A stretch of 9,219 nt of DNA from J088 sp003695505 [NCBI: Candidatus Dadabacteria bacterium]. GTDB lineage: Bacteria; J088. The notes under the pieces are model-generated. The model made no database searches. It was not told the origin of the DNA and saw only the letters and a program-made list of their open reading frames with translations. The stretch is from the NCBI GenBank assembly GCA_003695505.1, contig RFIY01000335.1, positions 1 to 9,219 of the forward strand, in the 5' to 3' direction. The position numbers and the translations under genes are program-made. Positions within the stretch are counted from its first letter, which is position 1, and every line of letters begins with the position of its first letter. This document shows positions 1 through 9,219 of the stretch, in pieces.

Positions 1-2439
<2,439 letters not shown>

Positions 2440-2530: not shown

Positions 2531-3517
2531 GTGAAGATCGGGGTACTGACCAGCGGAGGCGACGCACCGGGCATGAATGCCGCGGTTCGGGCCGTCGTGC
2601 GTGCTTCGGTCTGGCATCGGCACGAAGTCATCGGCATCCGCGGGGGGTACAACGGCATCTTCGCGCGCGCCTTCGAGCCGCTCGACCGACGTTCCGTATC
2701 GAACATTCTGCAACAGGGCGGCACCTTCCTGGAAACGGGCCGCTGCGCGCGGTTTCTCGAACCGGACGGCCCGGCTGAAGCGGCTGCGATCCTGCGGGAC
2801 AAAGGCCTGGACGCGCTGGTCGTGATTGGCGGCAACGGCTCGTACAAGGGTGCGCTGGCGCTACACCAGTCCGGGTTTCCCGCAGTGGTGGGCGTGCCGG
2901 GCTCCATCGACAACGACGTCGGCGGTACGGATTTATCGATCGGCTTCGATACGGCGGTCAACACTGCCGTCGACGCAATCGACCGCATCCGCGACACCGC
3001 CTTTTCGCTTGAGCGCGTGTTTTTTGTCGAGGTGATGGGTCGCGATACCGGCCACATTGCCGCGGCGGTTGGTCTGGCCTCCGGCGCCGAAGCGGTGATC
3101 GTACCCGAGGAACCCACGGATATCGATCTGTTGACCACCATCATCGACCGCGGCTTCGAGGCCGGCAAGCGGGCTGCGATTTTCGTTGTCGCTGAAGGTG
3201 ATGATGCCGGGGGCGCCGCCCGGATCCGGGATCGCATCGACGCCGCGACCCAGCACCCGCTGGATGATCGGGTCGTGATCCTCGGCTACATTCAACGCGG
3301 TGGATCTCCGACTGCGCGCGATCGGATTCTGGCATCACGCCTTGGCGTTGCTGCCGTGGATGCGCTCCAGAGCGGCCAGACCGCGGTGGCCGTCGGCGAG
3401 CGTTGTAGCGAGGTTGCCCTGACCCCACTGGAAACAGCCGTTCAGGAGCAGCCACCGCTCGACTTGCAGATTTTGCGACTCGCCGAGATTCTGTCGGGCG
3501 TGAGGACAAGCAGATGA
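2531..3517 (+). CDS. pfkA: 6-phosphofructokinase, ATP-type group (PfkA family)
   Basis: PFK-1 phosphorylates fructose 6-phosphate to fructose 1,6-bisphosphate, the committing step of glycolysis, in the cytosol. The 328-residue length fits bacterial PfkA (about 320). Seen: TSGGDAPGMNAAVR at 7-20 (nucleotide loop, plus effector-site Arg19/Arg23), R70 in the ATP site, GGNGSYKGA at 100-108, VPGSIDND around catalytic D127, R162, the MGR motif at 169-171, and R247 with GYIQRGGSP ending the substrate site. Gly after the N102 position and Gly in PGSID (not Lys) point to ATP rather than pyrophosphate as donor. Two departures from the E. coli pattern are Asn102 where E. coli has the Mg-coordinating Asp (GGDGS), and Tyr253 where E. 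coli has His249 in GHIQRGG. The GTG start is chosen because it gives the family N-terminus and has AAAGAGG just upstream. Its stop overlaps the mlaE start by 4 nt, so it heads the lipid-transport operon. Family assignment is firm; donor and activity given N102 are inferred. Confidence 0.95.
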   Translation: MKIGVLTSGGDAPGMNAAVRAVVRASVWHRHEVIGIRGGYNGIFARAFEPLDRRSVSNILQQGGTFLETGRCARFLEPDGPAEAAAILRDKGLDALVVIGGNGSYKGALALHQSGFPAVVGVPGSIDNDVGGTDLSIGFDTAVNTAVDAIDRIRDTAFSLERVFFVEVMGRDTGHIAAAVGLASGAEAVIVPEEPTDIDLLTTIIDRGFEAGKRAAIFVVAEGDDAGGAARIRDRIDAATQHPLDDRVVILGYIQRGGSPTARDRILASRLGVAAVDALQSGQTAVAVGERCSEVALTPLETAVQEQPPLDLQILRLAEILSGVRTSR

Positions 3518-4296
3518 AGCGCGATGTGGTCGATCCATTCGGCGCATTTTTTCGCAATCTGCTGCAGGAGACCGGCTTCGCGATGGTCATGCTTGGGGGC
3601 GCGCTGCGCTCGATCCCGACGCGCCCGTTTCCGCTCCGTCCGTTCATCAAACAACTGGAACAGGCAGGTGTACGCAGTTTCTCGATCATTTTTCTGACCG
3701 GACTGTTCACCGGAATGGTTCTGGCCTATCAGGGCGCGATCACGCTCGAGCGATTTGGCGGCAAGTCCCTGATCGGTAACGCCATTACGGCCAGCCTGCT
3801 CAAGGAGCTCGGTCCGGTTCTGGCGGCATTGATGGTCGCCGGCCGCGTCGGTGCCGGCTACGCATCCGAACTCGGGACGATGGTCGTGACCGAACAGGTC
3901 GCCGCGTTGCGCGCGTTCGGCACCGACCCGCGCCAGTTTCTGGTGTTGCCCCGCCTGTTGGCGCTGCTGATCATGCTGCCACTGCTGACGGTCTACGCGA
4001 ATGCCGTCGGCCTGTTCGGGGGCTATCTGGTCTGTGTCTACTCGCTCGACTTTTCGACGCTGTACTACCTGCGTTCGATCGAAGAAAGCATGACCAGCCA
4101 GGATGTCATTGGCGGCCTGGTCAAGAGCTTCGTCTTTGCTGGCATTATCGCGACGATCAGTTGCTCCGTGGGTCTCAATGCGCGTGGTGGCAGCGAGGCT
4201 GTGGGCCGCGTCACGACACGCGCCGTCGTCATCTCGAGCATCATGGTTCTGTTTGCCGATTTTCTGGTTACCCGCCTGCTGTACGTGTTCCAGTGA
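3514..4296 (+). CDS. mlaE: MlaE-family ABC transporter permease (phospholipid/lipid transport)
   Basis: MlaE is the inner-membrane permease of the MlaFEDB complex, which moves phospholipids between the inner membrane and the periplasm to keep outer-membrane lipid asymmetry. The 260 residues match E. coli MlaE length. About five hydrophobic segments are visible (roughly 56-76, 97-118, 142-175, 200-221, 236-257) after an amphipathic N-terminal region. The family core KELGPVLAALMVAGRVGAG (97-115) followed by ELGTM and TEQVAALRAFGTDP is clear; most relatives have Asp in the EQ-DAL motif where this protein has Ala129-Ala130. The ATG lies in an ATGA overlap with the pfkA stop and has GAGG at 3502-3505. 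It is followed by the ATPase with a GTGA overlap. Substrate could be phospholipid or another lipid such as a sterol; the sequence does not decide this. Confidence 0.94.
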   Translation: MKRDVVDPFGAFFRNLLQETGFAMVMLGGALRSIPTRPFPLRPFIKQLEQAGVRSFSIIFLTGLFTGMVLAYQGAITLERFGGKSLIGNAITASLLKELGPVLAALMVAGRVGAGYASELGTMVVTEQVAALRAFGTDPRQFLVLPRLLALLIMLPLLTVYANAVGLFGGYLVCVYSLDFSTLYYLRSIEESMTSQDVIGGLVKSFVFAGIIATISCSVGLNARGGSEAVGRVTTRAVVISSIMVLFADFLVTRLLYVFQ

Positions 4297-5033
4297 CGGC
4301 TGTTGACATCGATCTTCGGAATGTCGAGATTGGCTTCGGCGGGCCGCCGGTGCTGCACGAATTCAATCTGTCCGTTCCCTCGTCACAGACGCTCGTCGTA
4401 CTTGGCGAGAGTGGCTCAGGCAAAAGTACGATGCTTGGTGCCATCCTGGGGTTGATACGGCCCCAGCGGGGCGAGGTCGAGGTCTTTGGCGAACGCGTCG
4501 ACGCGTTGTCGGAGCGGCAACTCCATCCGGTGCGCGCACGCATTGGCATGGTGTTTCAGTATGGCGCCCTGTTCGATAGCGAAACGGTGGCTGAAAACGT
4601 CGGCTTTCGGATCCGACAGCAGCCGCGCTTCGACGCCGCACGTTTTGAACGTGAGGTTCAGGAAAAGCTGGAGTTTGTCGGCCTTGCCGAATTCCGAGAC
4701 CGGCTGCCCGGAGAATTGAGTGGCGGGCAGAAGAAACGGGTCGCCATCGCCCGCGCACTGGTGGGCGATCCCGCGCTGATGCTGTACGATGAACCGACGA
4801 CGGGACTCGATCCGATTACGGCGCGCAAGGTGCTCGAAGTCATTCGGCGCATCCGCGAGGAGTTCGGCACGACTTCGATCGTGGTCACGCACGAACTGCA
4901 CTATGCGTACTACATCGCCGACCGTGTCATTCTGATTCGCAACGGGCGGGTCGTGTTCGACGGTACGCCGGAGGCATTCCGGGCCGCCGATGACCCGTAC
5001 ATTGTGGAGTTTCGCTCGATGGAGGCGGAATGA
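4293..5033 (+). CDS. mlaF: MlaF-family ABC transporter ATP-binding protein
   Basis: This is the cytoplasmic ATPase that powers the MlaE permease. The 246-residue product has a full nucleotide-binding domain: Walker A GESGSGKST at 38-46 (K44), the Q-loop in GMVFQYGALFDS, signature LSGGQKKRVAIARAL starting at 142, Walker B LMLYDEP with D166 and catalytic E167, the D-loop TTGLDP, and switch His200 in VVTHEL. The MVFQ-GALFDS Q-loop and the HELHYAYYIADR tail are typical of the MlaF branch. A longer reading frame is open upstream to 4161, but the GTG at 4293 is preferred because it overlaps the mlaE stop as GTGA, matches the expected N-terminus (VDIDLRNVEIGF) and avoids a 130-nt overlap with mlaE. 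All catalytic motifs are intact. Confidence 0.95.
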   Translation: MTAVDIDLRNVEIGFGGPPVLHEFNLSVPSSQTLVVLGESGSGKSTMLGAILGLIRPQRGEVEVFGERVDALSERQLHPVRARIGMVFQYGALFDSETVAENVGFRIRQQPRFDAARFEREVQEKLEFVGLAEFRDRLPGELSGGQKKRVAIARALVGDPALMLYDEPTTGLDPITARKVLEVIRRIREEFGTTSIVVTHELHYAYYIADRVILIRNGRVVFDGTPEAFRAADDPYIVEFRSMEAE

Positions 5034-5971
5034 ACAGTCACAACGAAGCAGCCAGACTGATCCGCATCGGCGCGTTTTCACTCGTTGCGCTCGCACTCTT
5101 CTCCCTGGCGGCCCTGGTGGTCGGGCGCAAGGCCGGTTATTTTGCGAGTTATTATCGCCTTGTCGCGAGCTTTGAGTCGGTTCAGGGACTCGACGTTGGC
5201 CAGCCCGTCTGGCTCAATGGCGTCGATGTCGGTCTGGTCGAGCGGATCAATCTGATCCACGGCGACGCGCGCAAGATCGAGGTCATCCTGACGATCGAGG
5301 AAGACTACCAGGAATTCATTCGCGCCGACTCGGTCGCCATGCTGGGCACCCAGGGATTGCTTGGCGACAAGATCGTCAACATCACGATCGGGTCTCCGGA
5401 CCAGCCTGCCCTGGAGGACGGAGACGAGATTCAGACCGCCGCCCCCCTGGAAATCGGCGACATGATGGAGAAGATCGGCGAAGTGATCAAATCACTTGAG
5501 TCGAGCTTCGACGAGATCGAGGGCATGCTGGCAGATGTATCCGAAGGTGAAGGCACACTCGGCCGTCTGGTGCGCGATTCGTCGCTGCACGACGAGGGTG
5601 TCAGCGTACTGGCGCGGGTCGATGATCTGCTCGCGGACCTTCAACGCGGCCGGGGCACGATCGGCCGGCTGCTCAGTGACAGCACGCTTCATGACGACCT
5701 GACCGAAATCACCGGCCGCCTCAAACGCGGCGAGGGCACCGTTGGGAAACTGCTTGTCGATGAGTCCCTGTATACCAGCGCGACGACGGCAGTCGCGGTG
5801 CTCGAAGGAATCCTGAAGGACACCGAGGCCGGGCAGGGGACTGTCGGCAAACTGCTGCGTTCGGACGAGCTGCACGCGCGTATCGTTGAGCTGGTTGAAG
5901 ATCTCAAGGCGAATCCCGAACGCTACGTCCATGTAGATGTCAGCGTATTCGGGGGCCGGCGCAAACGCTGA
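5030..5971 (+). CDS. mlaD: MlaD-like MCE-domain lipid transport protein with repeat-bearing C-terminal extension
   Basis: MlaD is the membrane-anchored, periplasm-facing MCE subunit that forms a hexameric ring around a lipid channel on top of MlaFE. Here a single N-terminal membrane anchor (about 13-32) is followed by one MCE domain (about 41-120; VASFESVQGLDVGQPVWLNG at 45-64, then GLLGDKIVNITIGS). E. coli MlaD is about 183 residues; this protein has 313, the added part being a predicted helical tail from about 140 that contains four copies of a G-x-GT-(L/I/V)-G-(R/K)-L motif at residues 173, 207, 234 and 268. The end, NPERYVHVDVSVFGGRRKR, resembles the closing motif seen in long MlaD-type MCE proteins. 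Start is the ATG of an ATGA overlap with mlaF. The tail may span part of the periplasm or bind a partner; that is inference. MlaC and MlaB are not found next to it. Confidence 0.92.
   Translation: MNSHNEAARLIRIGAFSLVALALFSLAALVVGRKAGYFASYYRLVASFESVQGLDVGQPVWLNGVDVGLVERINLIHGDARKIEVILTIEEDYQEFIRADSVAMLGTQGLLGDKIVNITIGSPDQPALEDGDEIQTAAPLEIGDMMEKIGEVIKSLESSFDEIEGMLADVSEGEGTLGRLVRDSSLHDEGVSVLARVDDLLADLQRGRGTIGRLLSDSTLHDDLTEITGRLKRGEGTVGKLLVDESLYTSATTAVAVLEGILKDTEAGQGTVGKLLRSDELHARIVELVEDLKANPERYVHVDVSVFGGRRKR
5546..5904 (+). repeat. Four-copy degenerate repeat coding for GxGT(L/I/V)G(R/K)L units in MlaD
   Basis: Within the mlaD tail the units GEGTLGRL, GRGTIGRL, GEGTVGKL and GQGTVGKL begin at residues 173, 207, 234 and 268, giving spacings of 34, 27 and 34 residues. 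Each is followed by an L-x-x-(D/S)-x-x-L(H/Y) segment. The repetition is at protein level; the DNA copies have diverged, so it is an old, functional repeat rather than a recent tandem duplication. Confidence 0.75.
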
Positions 5972-5984
5972 ACGCTGCACCGTG

Positions 5985-6902
5985 ATGGCATCCATTTCGT
6001 TGTACAACCCGGATCGTCAAGCTGTGCGAATGACCCAGCCTGGCGAGATCGCACCGGGCCTCCACTTTCTTGGCTCTCCGGCAATCCTCGTCTACCTGAT
6101 CGAGGGGCGGCAGCGTGCGCTGGTCGACGCCGGGATGTCGCTGATGGGGCCGATGCTGCGGAGAGCGCTGGATCCATTCGGCGGCTTTGGCGCACTCGAC
6201 TGGCATTTATTGACCCATTCTCACTATGACCACATCGGCTGCACACCGCTGATCTGCCGAGAACGTCCAGGAATCCGCGTGGGCGCTCATCCACGGGTTG
6301 GCGAAATCGTCAACCGCCCCGGCGCCATAGAGCTGATCCGCAAGCTCAACGCCTCCGTCGCGGGCGGTCGCCTGCCGGAGGACCCGGACATCGTCGAGTT
6401 CGACGGGTTCGAGGTCACCGATCCGCTCGATGATGGCGCAACCATCGACCTTGACGGCGTCACGGTTGAGGCAGTTTGGGCGCCGGGGCATACTCGGGAT
6501 TCGATCGCGTTCTATCTGCCCGATCAACGCGCGATCATACCAGGCGAGGCGGGTGGCGTACCCGATTTTCAGGGGCGCATCATGCCGGAGTTTTTGCAGG
6601 ATATCGACGCATATGTGGCCAGCCTCGAAAAGATGGCCGCGCTGGAAGTCGAATGGGTCTGCCTGCCGCACAATTACGTTCTCGGTGGTGACGCCGCGCG
6701 GCATTACTTCGCCGATTCGATTGAGGCAACGCACCATTTCCGGGGGCTGATCGAGCAGGCCCTTGATCGGGCGAATGGTGATGTCGACAAAGCCATCGCG
6801 GAACTCGCTGAAGCCCTGTATCAACCCGGCGGGCAACCGCGGGATGCCTTCATGATCAATCTTGCCGCGATGACCCGGGTCGTTGCGCGATCAGCGACGT
6901 AA
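5985..6902 (+). CDS. Metallo-beta-lactamase-fold metal-dependent hydrolase, substrate unknown
   Basis: The 305-residue product has the MBL metal site: HSHYDH at 78-83, His169 in APGHTRDS and His229 in LPHNY. At the position where the family normally has the bridging Asp (a GD motif after the fourth strand), this protein reads PGEAGG, with Glu188. After residue 230 a helical C-terminal region follows, as in lyase- or thioesterase-like MBL members. The fold family is certain, the substrate is not: thioester, ester, lactone or glyoxalase II-type hydrolysis are all possible. Start choice is uncertain. ATG 5985 lies 14 nt after the mlaD stop; ATG 5937 would overlap mlaD by 35 nt, and ATG 6030 would also fit the family N-terminus. 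None has a strong Shine-Dalgarno. It follows mlaD closely and may be cotranscribed. Its stop overlaps the end of the convergent TetR gene by 12 nt. Confidence 0.85.
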   Translation: MASISLYNPDRQAVRMTQPGEIAPGLHFLGSPAILVYLIEGRQRALVDAGMSLMGPMLRRALDPFGGFGALDWHLLTHSHYDHIGCTPLICRERPGIRVGAHPRVGEIVNRPGAIELIRKLNASVAGGRLPEDPDIVEFDGFEVTDPLDDGATIDLDGVTVEAVWAPGHTRDSIAFYLPDQRAIIPGEAGGVPDFQGRIMPEFLQDIDAYVASLEKMAALEVEWVCLPHNYVLGGDAARHYFADSIEATHHFRGLIEQALDRANGDVDKAIAELAEALYQPGGQPRDAFMINLAAMTRVVARSAT

Positions 6903-7562
6903 CACCAGGCCGGTCTCATCGAGCCGATCCGCCGCGACCGTCGGCGGGCATGCCAGCCTGATCAGTTCCGCCCGCGCCCGCTCGATCAGCGAATCTCGCG
7001 TCCAGCGGTCGGGGTGTTGCAGCCAGGCGGCGAGACGGATCTGCAACAGATTCATCATCATGGCGAGCAGATCCTGCGGTTCGCAGGGCACCAGCTCGCC
7101 GTTCTCGATACCGGTCTCGATCAGTGAGAGGCTTGCTTCGAGACCGCGTGCCCACTGCCGATCCTGCTCCGCGGCGCGTCGCTCGGAGGGGTCGGGGCTG
7201 AGCGGACCTTCGCGCAGCAGCAACCGCGCATAGTCGGGGTGTTCGAATGCATAACCGATATACGCCGTCAGCGCGGCGAGTAACCGGTCAAGCGCCGATT
7301 CCGAGCGAACCGAGGCCAGCGCTTCCACGACAGCGGCGAGCAAACCCGCGCCGCGCGCGATACCTACAGCCTGATACAGTTCGAGCTTCGAGCGATAGAA
7401 GTCATAGACGGTCTTGACCGATACGCCGGCGCGCCGCGCAATCTCACGCATGCCCGTTGCGTCGAATCCGTGCGCAGCAAATTCTGCCTCTGCCGCGCCA
7501 AGGATGACCTCAACGTACATCCGCTGCCGCGCTTCATCGATCTTTGCCTCACGTGCCGCCAT
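6891..7562 (-). CDS. TetR/AcrR-family transcriptional regulator
   Basis: A 223-residue one-component repressor. The N-terminal DNA-binding domain is typical: AAEAEFAAHGFDATGMREIA leads into the helix-turn-helix at about 38-59, with RRAGVSVKTVYDFYRSK, matching the usual AGVS-x-x-T-(V/L)-Y-x-(H/D)-F-x-x-K pattern but with Tyr56 in place of the common Phe. The C-terminal half is variable, all-helical and would bind a ligand; a hydrophobic acyl-CoA, lipid or sterol-like ligand is only a guess from the neighbourhood. It is divergent from the sterol methyltransferase gene across 86 bp that contains a palindrome, so it probably controls itself and that gene. Only a weak GGAT-type ribosome site precedes its ATG (complement of 7560-7562). 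Confidence 0.93.
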   Translation of the reverse strand: MAAREAKIDEARQRMYVEVILGAAEAEFAAHGFDATGMREIARRAGVSVKTVYDFYRSKLELYQAVGIARGAGLLAAVVEALASVRSESALDRLLAALTAYIGYAFEHPDYARLLLREGPLSPDPSERRAAEQDRQWARGLEASLSLIETGIENGELVPCEPQDLLAMMMNLLQIRLAAWLQHPDRWTRDSLIERARAELIRLACPPTVAADRLDETGLVLRR

Positions 7563-7584
7563 TTGATCCAGCGTAACACGCCGG

Positions 7585-7613
7585 TGGAAAACGAGCGTTT
7601 TTCATGCTAGCAT
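7585..7613 (+). promoter_or_regulatory. Candidate sigma70-type promoter of the sterol methyltransferase gene
   Basis: TGGAAA (7585-7590, 4 of 6 to TTGACA) and TAGCAT (7608-7613, 4 of 6 to TATAAT) are separated by exactly 17 bp. The transcript would start near 7620 and leave a leader of about 30 nt. The inverted repeat at 7586-7603 sits inside it, consistent with repression. The matches are only moderate. Confidence 0.3.
7586..7603. promoter_or_regulatory. Candidate TetR operator (inverted repeat)
   Basis: AAAACG-AG-CGTTTT at 7588-7601 is a perfect 6+2+6 inverted repeat. The outermost pair G7586/C7603 also matches, with one mismatch at 7587/7602. It lies between the divergent tetR and sterol methyltransferase genes, where a TetR dimer would be expected to bind, and overlaps the candidate -35 and spacer of the latter. 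A second 10-bp perfect palindrome, ATGCTAGCAT at 7604-7613, abuts it. Binding is inferred. Confidence 0.5.
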
Positions 7614-7636
7614 TGCTGTTTCCCACTACCTTCGCC

Positions 7637-7641
7637 AGGAG
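7637..7641 (+). promoter_or_regulatory. Ribosome binding site deciding the start of the sterol methyltransferase
   Basis: AGGAG is placed 7 nt before the ATG at 7649. It favours this start over the in-frame ATG at 7604, which has no Shine-Dalgarno and lies in the promoter/palindrome region. Confidence 0.8.
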
Positions 7642-7648
7642 AAGCACG

Positions 7649-8686
7649 ATGGTCACATTGCCCCGTTTTCACAATCCGATTCCGAAGAGCGTCACCGCGC
7701 GACAGAACACTGCCAGCGCGGCCGCCGAATATCGCGGCCTGTTCCGGCCGGGCGCAGAATCGAAGCGGCGCGAAAAATACATGACGATGGTCAACCACTA
7801 CTACGACCTCGTCACCGACATCTACGAGTATGGCTGGGGCGAGTCCTTTCATTTCGCACCGCGCAACAAGGGCGAATCGTTCGACGCATCGATCCGGCGC
7901 CACGAACGATTCCTGGCCGAGCAACTCGATCTGCAACCCGGGCAGGAGGTTCTGGATGTGGGCTGCGGCGTTGGCGGACCGATGCGCGAGATCGCCCGCG
8001 TCAGCGGTGCGAACATTACTGGCGTCAATAATAACGCCTACCAGCTCGAGAAACTCGCCGCCTACAACGAGCGAGACGGGCTGCAGAAACGTTGCCGCGG
8101 CGTCCAGGCCGATTTTCTGGCGATGCCGTTCGACGACGACACGTTCGATGCCGCCTACACGATTGAGGCTACATGCCATGCACCCGACCGCACTGCCGTG
8201 TTTTCGGAGATCTTCCGTGTACTCAGACCGGGCGCACGCTTTGCCGGGTTCGAGTGGTGCATGACGGATGCCTGGGACCCGGAAGACCCCCATCATGAGA
8301 AGGTACGCGCCGGGATCGAGGAAGGCGACGCATTGCCGCCCCTGCCGCACTATCGTGTGATCGTCGATGCGCTCGAGGATGCCGGGTTCGAGGTTGAAAC
8401 GCACCGGGATCTGGCGGAAACATCCGATCCAGCGACCCCCTGGTATCTGCCGCTCACCGGCAAGGAACTGTCGCTGTCGAGTTTTCCGCGCACCCCTGTC
8501 GGGCAATTGTTCACGCACACGCTTTTACGGGTCGGTGAGTTGCTGCGCGTCGCGCCAGAGGGTTCCGGCGAAATTACCCGTTTCCTGATTCGTGGTGCCC
8601 GCAACCTCGCCGAAGGCGGCCGGCTCGGCATCTTTACGCCAATGTACTTCTTTGTCGCGCGCAAACCGCCAGCGGCTGCCGGCTGA
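7649..8686 (+). CDS. Sterol 24-C-methyltransferase homologue (Erg6/SMT family)
   Basis: SMTs transfer a methyl group from S-adenosylmethionine to the C-24 double bond of sterol side chains, as in ergosterol and phytosterol synthesis. This 345-residue protein has all the family signatures: sterol-binding region I YYDLVTDIYEYGWGESFHF (Y59 corresponds to yeast Erg6 Tyr81, E60 to Glu82), SAM motif LDVGCGVGGP (D103), GVNNNAYQ (125-132), IEATCHAP (172-179), FEWCMTD (201-207) and IEEGDALP (from 223). It also has the C-terminal SMT domain, with PWYLPLTG (264 on), APEGS and IFTPM-FFVARKP (328 on). No transmembrane segment or signal peptide is seen. The start is chosen by the AGGAG at 7637. Tocopherol- or phosphoethanolamine-methyltransferases share the SAM fold but lack region I and the C-terminal domain, so SMT is much the best fit. 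The true substrate in this organism (own sterol, host or diet sterol, or a sterol-like triterpenoid) is unknown. It is probably controlled by the divergent TetR gene. Confidence 0.93.
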   Translation: MVTLPRFHNPIPKSVTARQNTASAAAEYRGLFRPGAESKRREKYMTMVNHYYDLVTDIYEYGWGESFHFAPRNKGESFDASIRRHERFLAEQLDLQPGQEVLDVGCGVGGPMREIARVSGANITGVNNNAYQLEKLAAYNERDGLQKRCRGVQADFLAMPFDDDTFDAAYTIEATCHAPDRTAVFSEIFRVLRPGARFAGFEWCMTDAWDPEDPHHEKVRAGIEEGDALPPLPHYRVIVDALEDAGFEVETHRDLAETSDPATPWYLPLTGKELSLSSFPRTPVGQLFTHTLLRVGELLRVAPEGSGEITRFLIRGARNLAEGGRLGIFTPMYFFVARKPPAAAG

Positions 8687-8689
8687 GCG

Positions 8690-9219
8690 TCAGTCGCTGC
8701 TGCGCCACGTCGCGCGGAAACTGTGCTCGATACTCCGTCCGTCGCTGTCGCTGACGCGGATGATCAGTTCGGCGGGGCCCGTCGTCGTCGCAGACCACGA
8801 ACCCTCGACGGCAAGCTCATAGGTCGAACCATCGTCCTGCTGCGTCGCGGACACATCTGAAATGGTGCCGGTCGTCGGCAGGGCCGACCAGGTCAACCCG
8901 TTGCGCTCGTCGGCAACAATGAAGCGGAAGCGCGTGCCCGTCGTCGTGACTGGCTCCGCATCGGACAGCACGGCTTCAAGCACAACGGGCGGCAACGGCC
9001 CCGCCGCCGGCTGCAGGTCGATACGCGATTGAGACTGACGTAGCACCACGGTCTGGGCGACGAAACGTTCGCTTCGGGTCGGCAAGGCGCGGACGTGGTA
9101 CGTCACACCTGCGGGCGACCACGGCAGCCCCTCGGCCCGATAGAAGCCGTCACCCCGTGGCCGCAGCAACTGCCCCGCCTCCTCGACGACCACAAGCGTA
9201 TCCGTCACCGGTCTCCCGC
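8690..9219 (-). CDS. C-terminal part of an unrecognised protein, probably beta-sandwich (partial at window end)
   Basis: The frame is open from the window edge to a TGA at 8690-8692, only 3 nt from the convergent methyltransferase stop. A GTG at 9206-9208 with GGGAG upstream could be a start giving 172 residues, but no signal peptide follows it and the frame stays open upstream, so a longer protein cut by the window is more likely. The sequence is rich in Thr, Ser, Val and alternating beta-type stretches (for example TYELAVEGSW and AELIIRVSDSDGRSIEHSF), suggesting one or two Ig-like or similar beta-sandwich domains, perhaps extracytoplasmic. I do not recognise the family. Codon use is GC-rich like the neighbours and there is no frameshift, so it is likely a real gene. 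Confidence 0.6.
   Translation of the reverse strand, partial: GRPVTDTLVVVEEAGQLLRPRGDGFYRAEGLPWSPAGVTYHVRALPTRSERFVAQTVVLRQSQSRIDLQPAAGPLPPVVLEAVLSDAEPVTTTGTRFRFIVADERNGLTWSALPTTGTISDVSATQQDDGSTYELAVEGSWSATTTGPAELIIRVSDSDGRSIEHSFRATWRSSD

Follow-up and report, generated by a model that had tools for sequence, protein, structure and literature searches.

The window analysed here, 9,219 bp at its full length, represents the entire contig C33 of assembly G000. It carries an intact, uninterrupted gene for a predicted sterol C-24 methyltransferase (SMT), which is divergently oriented with respect to a gene encoding a TetR-family regulator (TetR1). The annotated features are as follows:

16..2439, + strand: gyrB, a bacterial marker (TIGR01059, 1020.9 bits)
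2531..3517, + strand: 6-phosphofructokinase gene, pfk (PF00365, 335.1 bits)
3514..4296, + strand: MlaE-type lipid ABC permease (PF02405, 253.3 bits)
4161..5033, + strand: MlaF-like ABC ATPase (PF00005, 117.2 bits), a mechanical ORF whose true start is probably near 4300
5030..5971, + strand: MlaD/MCE-domain protein (PF02470, 68.1 bits)
5937..6902, + strand: MBL-fold hydrolase (PF00753, 65.4 bits)
6891..7562, - strand: TetR1, TetR-family regulator divergent from the SMT gene (PF00440, 57.5 bits)
7563..7648: intergenic region of 86 bp between the divergent tetR and SMT genes
7585..7604: operator-like palindrome TGGAAAACGAGCGTTTTTCA, an inverted repeat (89%), proposed TetR site
7649..8686, + strand: sterol C-24 methyltransferase (SMT), 345 aa (PF08498 and PF08241)
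8690..9208, - strand: convergent ORF of no Pfam family, with its stop 3 bp past the SMT stop

Both domains of the SMT are present and exceed their cut-offs, Sterol_MT_C (PF08498) with 75.8 bits against 21.7 and Methyltransf_11 (PF08241) with 72.0 bits against 21.2. The motifs YEYGWG (residue 59), DVGCGVGGP, IEATCHAP, FEWCMTD, GD and PWYLPL were all found, the first being what we take to be Region I and the second the SAM motif. The initial annotation of this DNA, according to which the SMT signature blocks and the C-terminal SMT domain are intact, is thereby confirmed. A Shine-Dalgarno-like AGGAG precedes the ATG at 7649, and the mechanical SMT ORF opens further upstream, at an ATG (7604) where the palindrome has its edge. 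The protein is 47% identical to the sequence taken for yeast ERG6 and 52% identical to that taken for Arabidopsis SMT1, and in a 90-row alignment its identity to three eukaryotic reference SMTs ranges from 41 to 51%. With residues numbered on this ERG6 sequence, it keeps those aligned with Erg6 D79, Y81, E82, W85, G86, H90, E108, D125, D189, E195 and H199; the equivalent of D152 is Ala, likewise found in 54 of the 87 bacterial rows. No other protein matching PF08498 was detected in the assembly (2.83 Mb, 84.5% complete). An SMT-like methyltransferase working on another lipid, e.g. a polyprenoid, would fit an N-terminal domain that matches general methyltransferases too, but the Sterol_MT_C score above cut-off, the 41–51% identity to the three eukaryotic reference SMTs in the 90-row alignment and the sterol pathway genes present in the SMT's own genome render this alternative highly improbable.

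The gene had been described initially as lying beside gyrB in a bacterial chromosome. The two genes do share a contig, but gyrB ends at 2439, 5.2 kb upstream, and pfk, mlaE, the mlaF-like gene, mlaD, the MBL-fold gene and the divergent tetR gene lie in between. The bacterial setting itself is borne out by the presence of gyrB on the same contig and by the composition of the SMT gene, whose GC3 (0.725) matches that of six measured neighbour genes (0.699–0.775), so that contamination with eukaryotic DNA is unlikely. A chimeric bin, or eukaryotic DNA on the contig, has to be weighed for an assembly that is fragmented (395 contigs), derives from an incomplete genome and lacks phylum mates in the genome set, a lack that may reflect nothing more than an unclassified entry there. 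Nevertheless, gyrB, pfk and the mla genes share the contig with the SMT gene, the latter is a single uninterrupted ORF, GC and GC3 match, the contamination estimate is 0.25%, and the palindromes described below connect C33 with contigs C176, C258 and C218, which makes an artefact of this kind barely credible. No 16S match was found in the assembly (84.5% complete), and the GyrB tree joins it to Dadabacteria at 85/69 only, which gives no firm phylum.

Relatives and specificity of the methyltransferase

Bacterial genome contigs were scanned for homologues with a query alignment composed of the window SMT and two eukaryotic reference SMTs. The scan yielded 129 stretches, 109 of which encode SMT relatives, and the best 80 of these 109, corresponding to 79 distinct loci, were kept. 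The relatives are labelled Myxococcota, Gemmatimonadota, Latescibacterota, Alpha- and Gammaproteobacteria, Binatota, Chloroflexi, Acidobacteria, Spirochaetes and others, and the closest SMT among the best 80 of the 109 is that of a Spirochaetes MAG (locus L071; 56% identity). A tree of 90 rows was then built from the window SMT, 86 other bacterial SMTs, some of them second copies, and three eukaryotic reference SMTs. The window SMT pairs with that of the Spirochaetes MAG at 94/91, within a 43-row bacterial group (89/85); ERG6 and SMT1 form a pair of their own, apart from the window SMT, and AtSMT2 is joined by two Myxococcota rows (94/91). Thus, although the enzyme resembles fungal ERG6 and plant SMT1 in domains, motifs and the identities given above, it groups with bacterial SMTs. 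As placed by this tree, which is midpoint-rooted, includes only three eukaryotic rows and gives the window SMT a long branch, the protein belongs among the bacterial, rather than the eukaryotic, SMTs, and the earlier label "eukaryote-type" is not supported.

The conserved Tyr at the Erg6 Tyr81 position had been read previously as pointing to a one-methyl (C28) product. This reading turned out to be weak: Tyr81 is also found in the Arabidopsis SMT2 reference sequence, a second-methylation enzyme, and in 81 of the 87 bacterial rows, a count that includes the window SMT and is biased by the partial gathering of rows through the YEYGW pattern. The residue that varies is at position 83. The number of methyl groups added by the window SMT cannot be read from its sequence.

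Brown et al. 2023 (PMC10070321) count 7966 SMT homologues and describe assays of 24 metagenomic SMTs, 20 of them active: sterols were alkylated by 8 of the 10 enzymes that came from sponge metagenomes and by 12 of the 14 that came from other environments. According to the same paper, repeated methylation is carried out by several of the bacterial enzymes, and three metagenomic SMTs gave 24-isopropyl sterols. The enzyme itself is a further member of these already published bacterial SMTs, since it is likewise an SMT of an uncultured bacterium with both domains. Some of the SMTs in that paper (PMC10070321) lie in sterol clusters with sdmA/sdmB, and for 13 of the 24 the cluster or MAG also includes an oxidosqualene cyclase (OSC). 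In contrast to the clustered ones, the window SMT is encoded on a separate contig from the other sterol genes found and adjoins a divergent tetR gene, and the sets used contain no close relative of its lineage.

Sterol synthesis genes in the assembly

Squalene monooxygenase, OSC and CYP51, for which the initial annotation had suggested searching the same genome, were all found, CYP51 as a fragment. Contig C176 (L083) contains, in this order, a squalene epoxidase-squalene synthase (SE-SQS) fusion gene, an OSC gene and a PadR gene. In the fusion, an epoxidase domain (PF08491, 75.3 bits) is followed by a synthase domain (PF00494, 154.1 bits) within an open frame of 800 aa, or 789 aa from the chosen ATG at 4302 (L083 4302–6671). 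An internal ribosome-site-like AAAGGA with an ATG stands ahead of the synthase part of this frame. SE and SQS share one open frame in 3 of 30 other SMT genomes as well, all of them Myxococcota MAGs, and the fusion was for this reason dropped as a novelty; no report of an SE-SQS fusion was recognised in the literature searched, from which a paper may have been missed. The Myxococcota fusions have about 237–371 aa between the matched parts, whereas the linker in the G000 fusion is short, and at a further locus (L037) SE and SQS are present in different frames. Immediately upstream of the sterol operon, two closely similar small RRM proteins are encoded in tandem (L083 3070–3318 and 3830–4078), the first called by Pfam scan and the second judged by eye.

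The OSC scores 535.9 bits with TIGR01787, over its cut-off, and 632.7 bits with TIGR03463, under its cut-off of 851. It carries the DCTAE motif, and its best PDB match is human lanosterol synthase (1w6k). The residues aligned with human T381/C449/V453 (numbering counted from the alignment) are Y/Q/T, a combination in which states typical of lanosterol synthases and of cycloartenol synthases are mixed; judged by these residues, lanosterol, parkeol and cycloartenol cannot be told apart as the first sterol. A second squalene/oxidosqualene cyclase was not found in the assembly (84.5% complete). The CYP51 gene is represented by a 306-aa C-terminal fragment that opens contig C145 and whose best PDB matches are CYP51 (338 bits). 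Contig C333 was considered as the source of the CYP51 N-terminus and rejected, its best PDB matches being other P450s and its CYP51 matches weak.

Contig C258 contains, in this order, genes for an SdmA-like Rieske protein, a second TetR-family regulator (TetR2) and a 3-beta-HSD family protein (PF01073). The SdmA-like protein, with its final residues overlapping the beginning of contig C266, scores 279 bits, below the curated cut-off of 600, and is 45–52% identical to the 14 best-scoring matches listed, with 27 of the 79 SMT loci matched. The PF01073 protein, two genes from sdmA-like, is only 26–28% identical to the 14 best matches listed at SMT loci and may be SdmB-like. C-4 demethylation is likely in G000, through candidate SdmA/SdmB-like proteins of which the SdmA-like one scores under the cut-off. 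Finally, contig C218 encodes a fatty acid hydroxylase superfamily protein (PF04116, 86.7 bits), a superfamily that presumably comprises sterol desaturases and C-4 methyl oxidases; this protein had no PDB match up to E = 1. An ERG4/ERG24-type reductase was not found in the incomplete assembly by a search that had no matching control. According to PMC10202945 and PMC12004948, the sterol pathway of Myxococcota likewise involves OSC, CYP51 and bacterial C-4 demethylation proteins; G000 differs from it in the side-chain methyltransferase and in the shared palindrome.

The co-occurrence of SE, OSC, the CYP51 fragment and the SdmA-like and 3-beta-HSD-like genes in one assembly argues for de novo synthesis. 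In the predicted route, the SE-SQS fusion would make squalene and epoxidise it, OSC would then carry out the cyclisation, and CYP51, probably together with SdmA/SdmB-like demethylation, would act after OSC. The SMT would most likely alkylate the delta-24 double bond in the side chain of the cell's own sterol. The earlier suggestion that this bacterium may alkylate its own sterols thus gains weight from the SE, OSC and CYP51 fragment in the assembly, and it keeps its "may". Among 30 genomes with other SMTs, of unstated completeness, 14 had an SE match, 17 an SQS match and 11 neither (E <= 1e-20), and an OSC match was found in 22 of the 79 SMT loci within the DNA around each locus. Having SE, SQS and OSC, G000 therefore stands among those SMT-bearing genomes that seem equipped for sterol synthesis of their own.

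Alternatively, the SMT could alter sterols of a host or of the environment, the cell containing no alkylated sterols made de novo. The use of outside sterols is discussed for a Chlamydiae MAG in PMC10070321, and the 11 of 30 SMT genomes without an SE or SQS match at E <= 1e-20 point in the same direction. One of these 11 is the genome of the Spirochaetes MAG with the nearest SMT (L071), which may act on acquired sterols. Contig C213 (L125 4364–9954) encodes a P450, two KshA-like oxygenases, an acyl-CoA dehydrogenase family protein and a BphC-like dioxygenase, a steroid-degradation-like cluster from which it follows that the cell may also break down steroids. This cluster, together with the Mla/MCE lipid transport genes upstream of the SMT gene in the window, would suit the use of acquired sterols. 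Against it stand the SQS, SE, OSC and CYP51 fragment of the assembly and the upstream palindrome common to SMT and the SE-SQS-OSC operon, and we consider it unlikely that the SMT works on acquired sterols instead of the cell's own.

A palindrome shared by sterol loci

The 86-bp gap between tetR1 and the SMT gene, in which no match to a sigma-70-type promoter was found, contains the sequence GTGGAAAACGAGCGTTTTTCAT. It follows the pattern TGGAAAA-N6-TTTTYCA, with one mismatch to TGGAAAA-N6-TTTTCCA. The palindrome at 7585..7604 lies 44 bp ahead of the SMT ATG and 22 bp ahead of the tetR1 ATG. A perfect palindrome, GTGGAAAACGATTGTTTTCCAC, is situated 22 bp upstream of the chosen SE-SQS start on C176, and in the 22-bp form the two differ at 2 of 18 fixed positions. 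The gap between sdmA-like and tetR2 on C258 holds another perfect copy, TGGAAAATTGCAATTTTCCA, with the same 6-bp spacing, 32 bp ahead of the sdmA-like ATG and 23 bp ahead of the tetR2 ATG. On C218, two tandem sites with one and two mismatches are located 31 and 10 bp, respectively, ahead of the PF04116 gene. These five sites agree in half-site and in 6-bp spacing. Copies of the palindrome are found ahead of several genes of the pathway and in the gaps next to tetR1 and tetR2. None was seen for CYP51, the gene of which is truncated at a contig end before its promoter; C145 and C333 have no site with up to three mismatches. No site with up to two mismatches was detected on C213, C145, C333, C238, C198, C102 or C266. 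Sites with three mismatches on C213, C238 and the Rieske locus L130 were discarded as being at chance level. A weaker second inverted repeat (GTCAAAACG / CGGTTTGAC; L083 4212–4230) is present about 47 bp upstream of the SE-SQS-OSC palindrome.

The pattern was first spotted by eye at two sites (tetR-SMT and SE-SQS), and only the sites on C258, picked as a sterol locus, and on C218, picked for a P450 fragment, test it. A genome-wide search with the longer form GTGGAAAACN4GTTTTCCAC, allowing up to three mismatches, recovered only the regions upstream of SE-SQS-OSC and between tetR and SMT, and the reversed control returned none. The core TGGAAAA-N6-TTTTCCA was scanned in the targeted and control contigs against a third-order Markov background derived from 318,059 readable bases of G000. 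In the 85,050 targeted bases, four sites with up to one mismatch were seen (0.0045 expected) and five with up to two (0.16 expected). For the whole genome, the chance expectation is 0.15 sites with up to one mismatch and 5.2 with up to two; with about five such chance sites per genome, sites of two mismatches mean little by themselves. The control sample (every tenth contig, 30 of 39 being readable; 228,782 bases) contained no site with up to two mismatches, and 1,537,796 bases of other bacteria contained none with up to one mismatch and three with two. When the spacing was altered, with up to two mismatches allowed, a 7-bp spacing gave two sites in the targeted contigs and two in the control sample, a 12-bp spacing one in the targeted contigs, and spacings of 2, 5 and 10 bp one each in the control sample. 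Weak sites are therefore not meaningful alone.

TetR proteins and a candidate sterol regulon

The best NCBIfam match of TetR1 is FasR (50.2 bits, cut-off 330), and the KstR model gives 26.1 bits (cut-off 280). FasR and KstR are TetR regulators of lipid metabolism, KstR governing sterol breakdown. TetR1 resembles both in its family and in the palindromic site beside the tetR gene, but it scores far below the cut-offs of the two models. Moreover, in contrast to the breakdown role of KstR, the sites of G000 precede synthesis-type genes, and none with up to two mismatches occurs on the degradation-like contig C213. TetR1 and TetR2 are 36% identical over nearly all of TetR1. A third paralogue is encoded on C102 (L127 about 170–2255), directly ahead of a cytochrome P450 gene, with no matching palindrome beside it; two of the three tetR paralogues thus have the palindrome in their gap.

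Only one of the 79 SMT loci, L049 from a Myxococcota MAG, encodes a relative of TetR1 at E <= 1e-6 (33% identity). At this locus (L049 9770–13343), SMT, a CYP51 homologue and, directly after, the TetR gene stand in a row. The CYP51 homologue, at 54% identity, is the best match to the G000 CYP51 among 19 loci; the frame that contains it is 570 aa long and by eye looks ferredoxin-like towards its C-terminus. No such palindrome was found at L049, where only a partial match with three mismatches and a 5-bp spacing lies in the SMT-CYP51 gap. This locus lends moderate, independent support to a link between the TetR1-type group and sterol genes.

The shared palindromes suggest a TetR-controlled sterol regulon; neither the divergent tetR gene nor the palindrome had featured in the initial annotation. 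Another regulator might bind the palindrome instead, or the resemblance might be partly due to chance, with TetR1 controlling SMT only or nothing. TetR proteins are common, with at least three paralogues in the contigs read (C33, C258 and C102), the C102 paralogue stands ahead of a P450 gene without a matching palindrome, and the pattern was chosen after two sites had been seen. Autoregulated TetR proteins, however, typically adjoin their operators, and the presence of sites next to tetR1 and tetR2, two of the three paralogues, corresponds to that arrangement; in addition, four sites were seen against 0.0045 expected by chance, and half-site and 6-bp spacing agree in five. We hold this alternative to be rather doubtful, though it deserves serious attention. 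In the regulon that we propose, TetR1, its paralogue TetR2, or both would probably bind TGGAAAA-N6-TTTTCCA and probably control in this way the transcription of the SMT gene along with that of three or more further sterol loci, in response to a sterol-pathway metabolite or an acyl-CoA. Taken as a whole, it is probable that the SMT alkylates a self-made sterol and that TetR1/TetR2 control the sterol loci through the palindrome.

No regulator of bacterial sterol synthesis was recognised in the literature searched, from which a paper may have been missed, and the matched passages of PMC4919349 mention no TetR regulator. Lee and Welander 2025 (PMC12004948) note that the proteins with which bacteria regulate sterols are still poorly understood and that bacterial genomes lack SREBP homologues. 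The new element of this work is the candidate sterol-synthesis regulon, which addresses a question left open in PMC12004948.

For bacterial sterol control, the locus thus supplies a candidate regulator together with a site of 20 bp and four loci as putative targets. Whether these amount to a dedicated sterol-synthesis regulon, in which small TetR proteins at the epoxidase-cyclase, C-4 demethylase, desaturase-family and SMT genes would sense a sterol or an intermediate, is in our view an evenly balanced matter. If true, bacteria would have a functional equivalent of SREBP-type feedback, here in an organism that may itself produce sterols alkylated at C-24. Steranes with a 24-alkyl group are used as biomarkers of eukaryotes, and a further bacterial lineage that appears to have most of the route to 24-alkyl sterols would weaken this reading.
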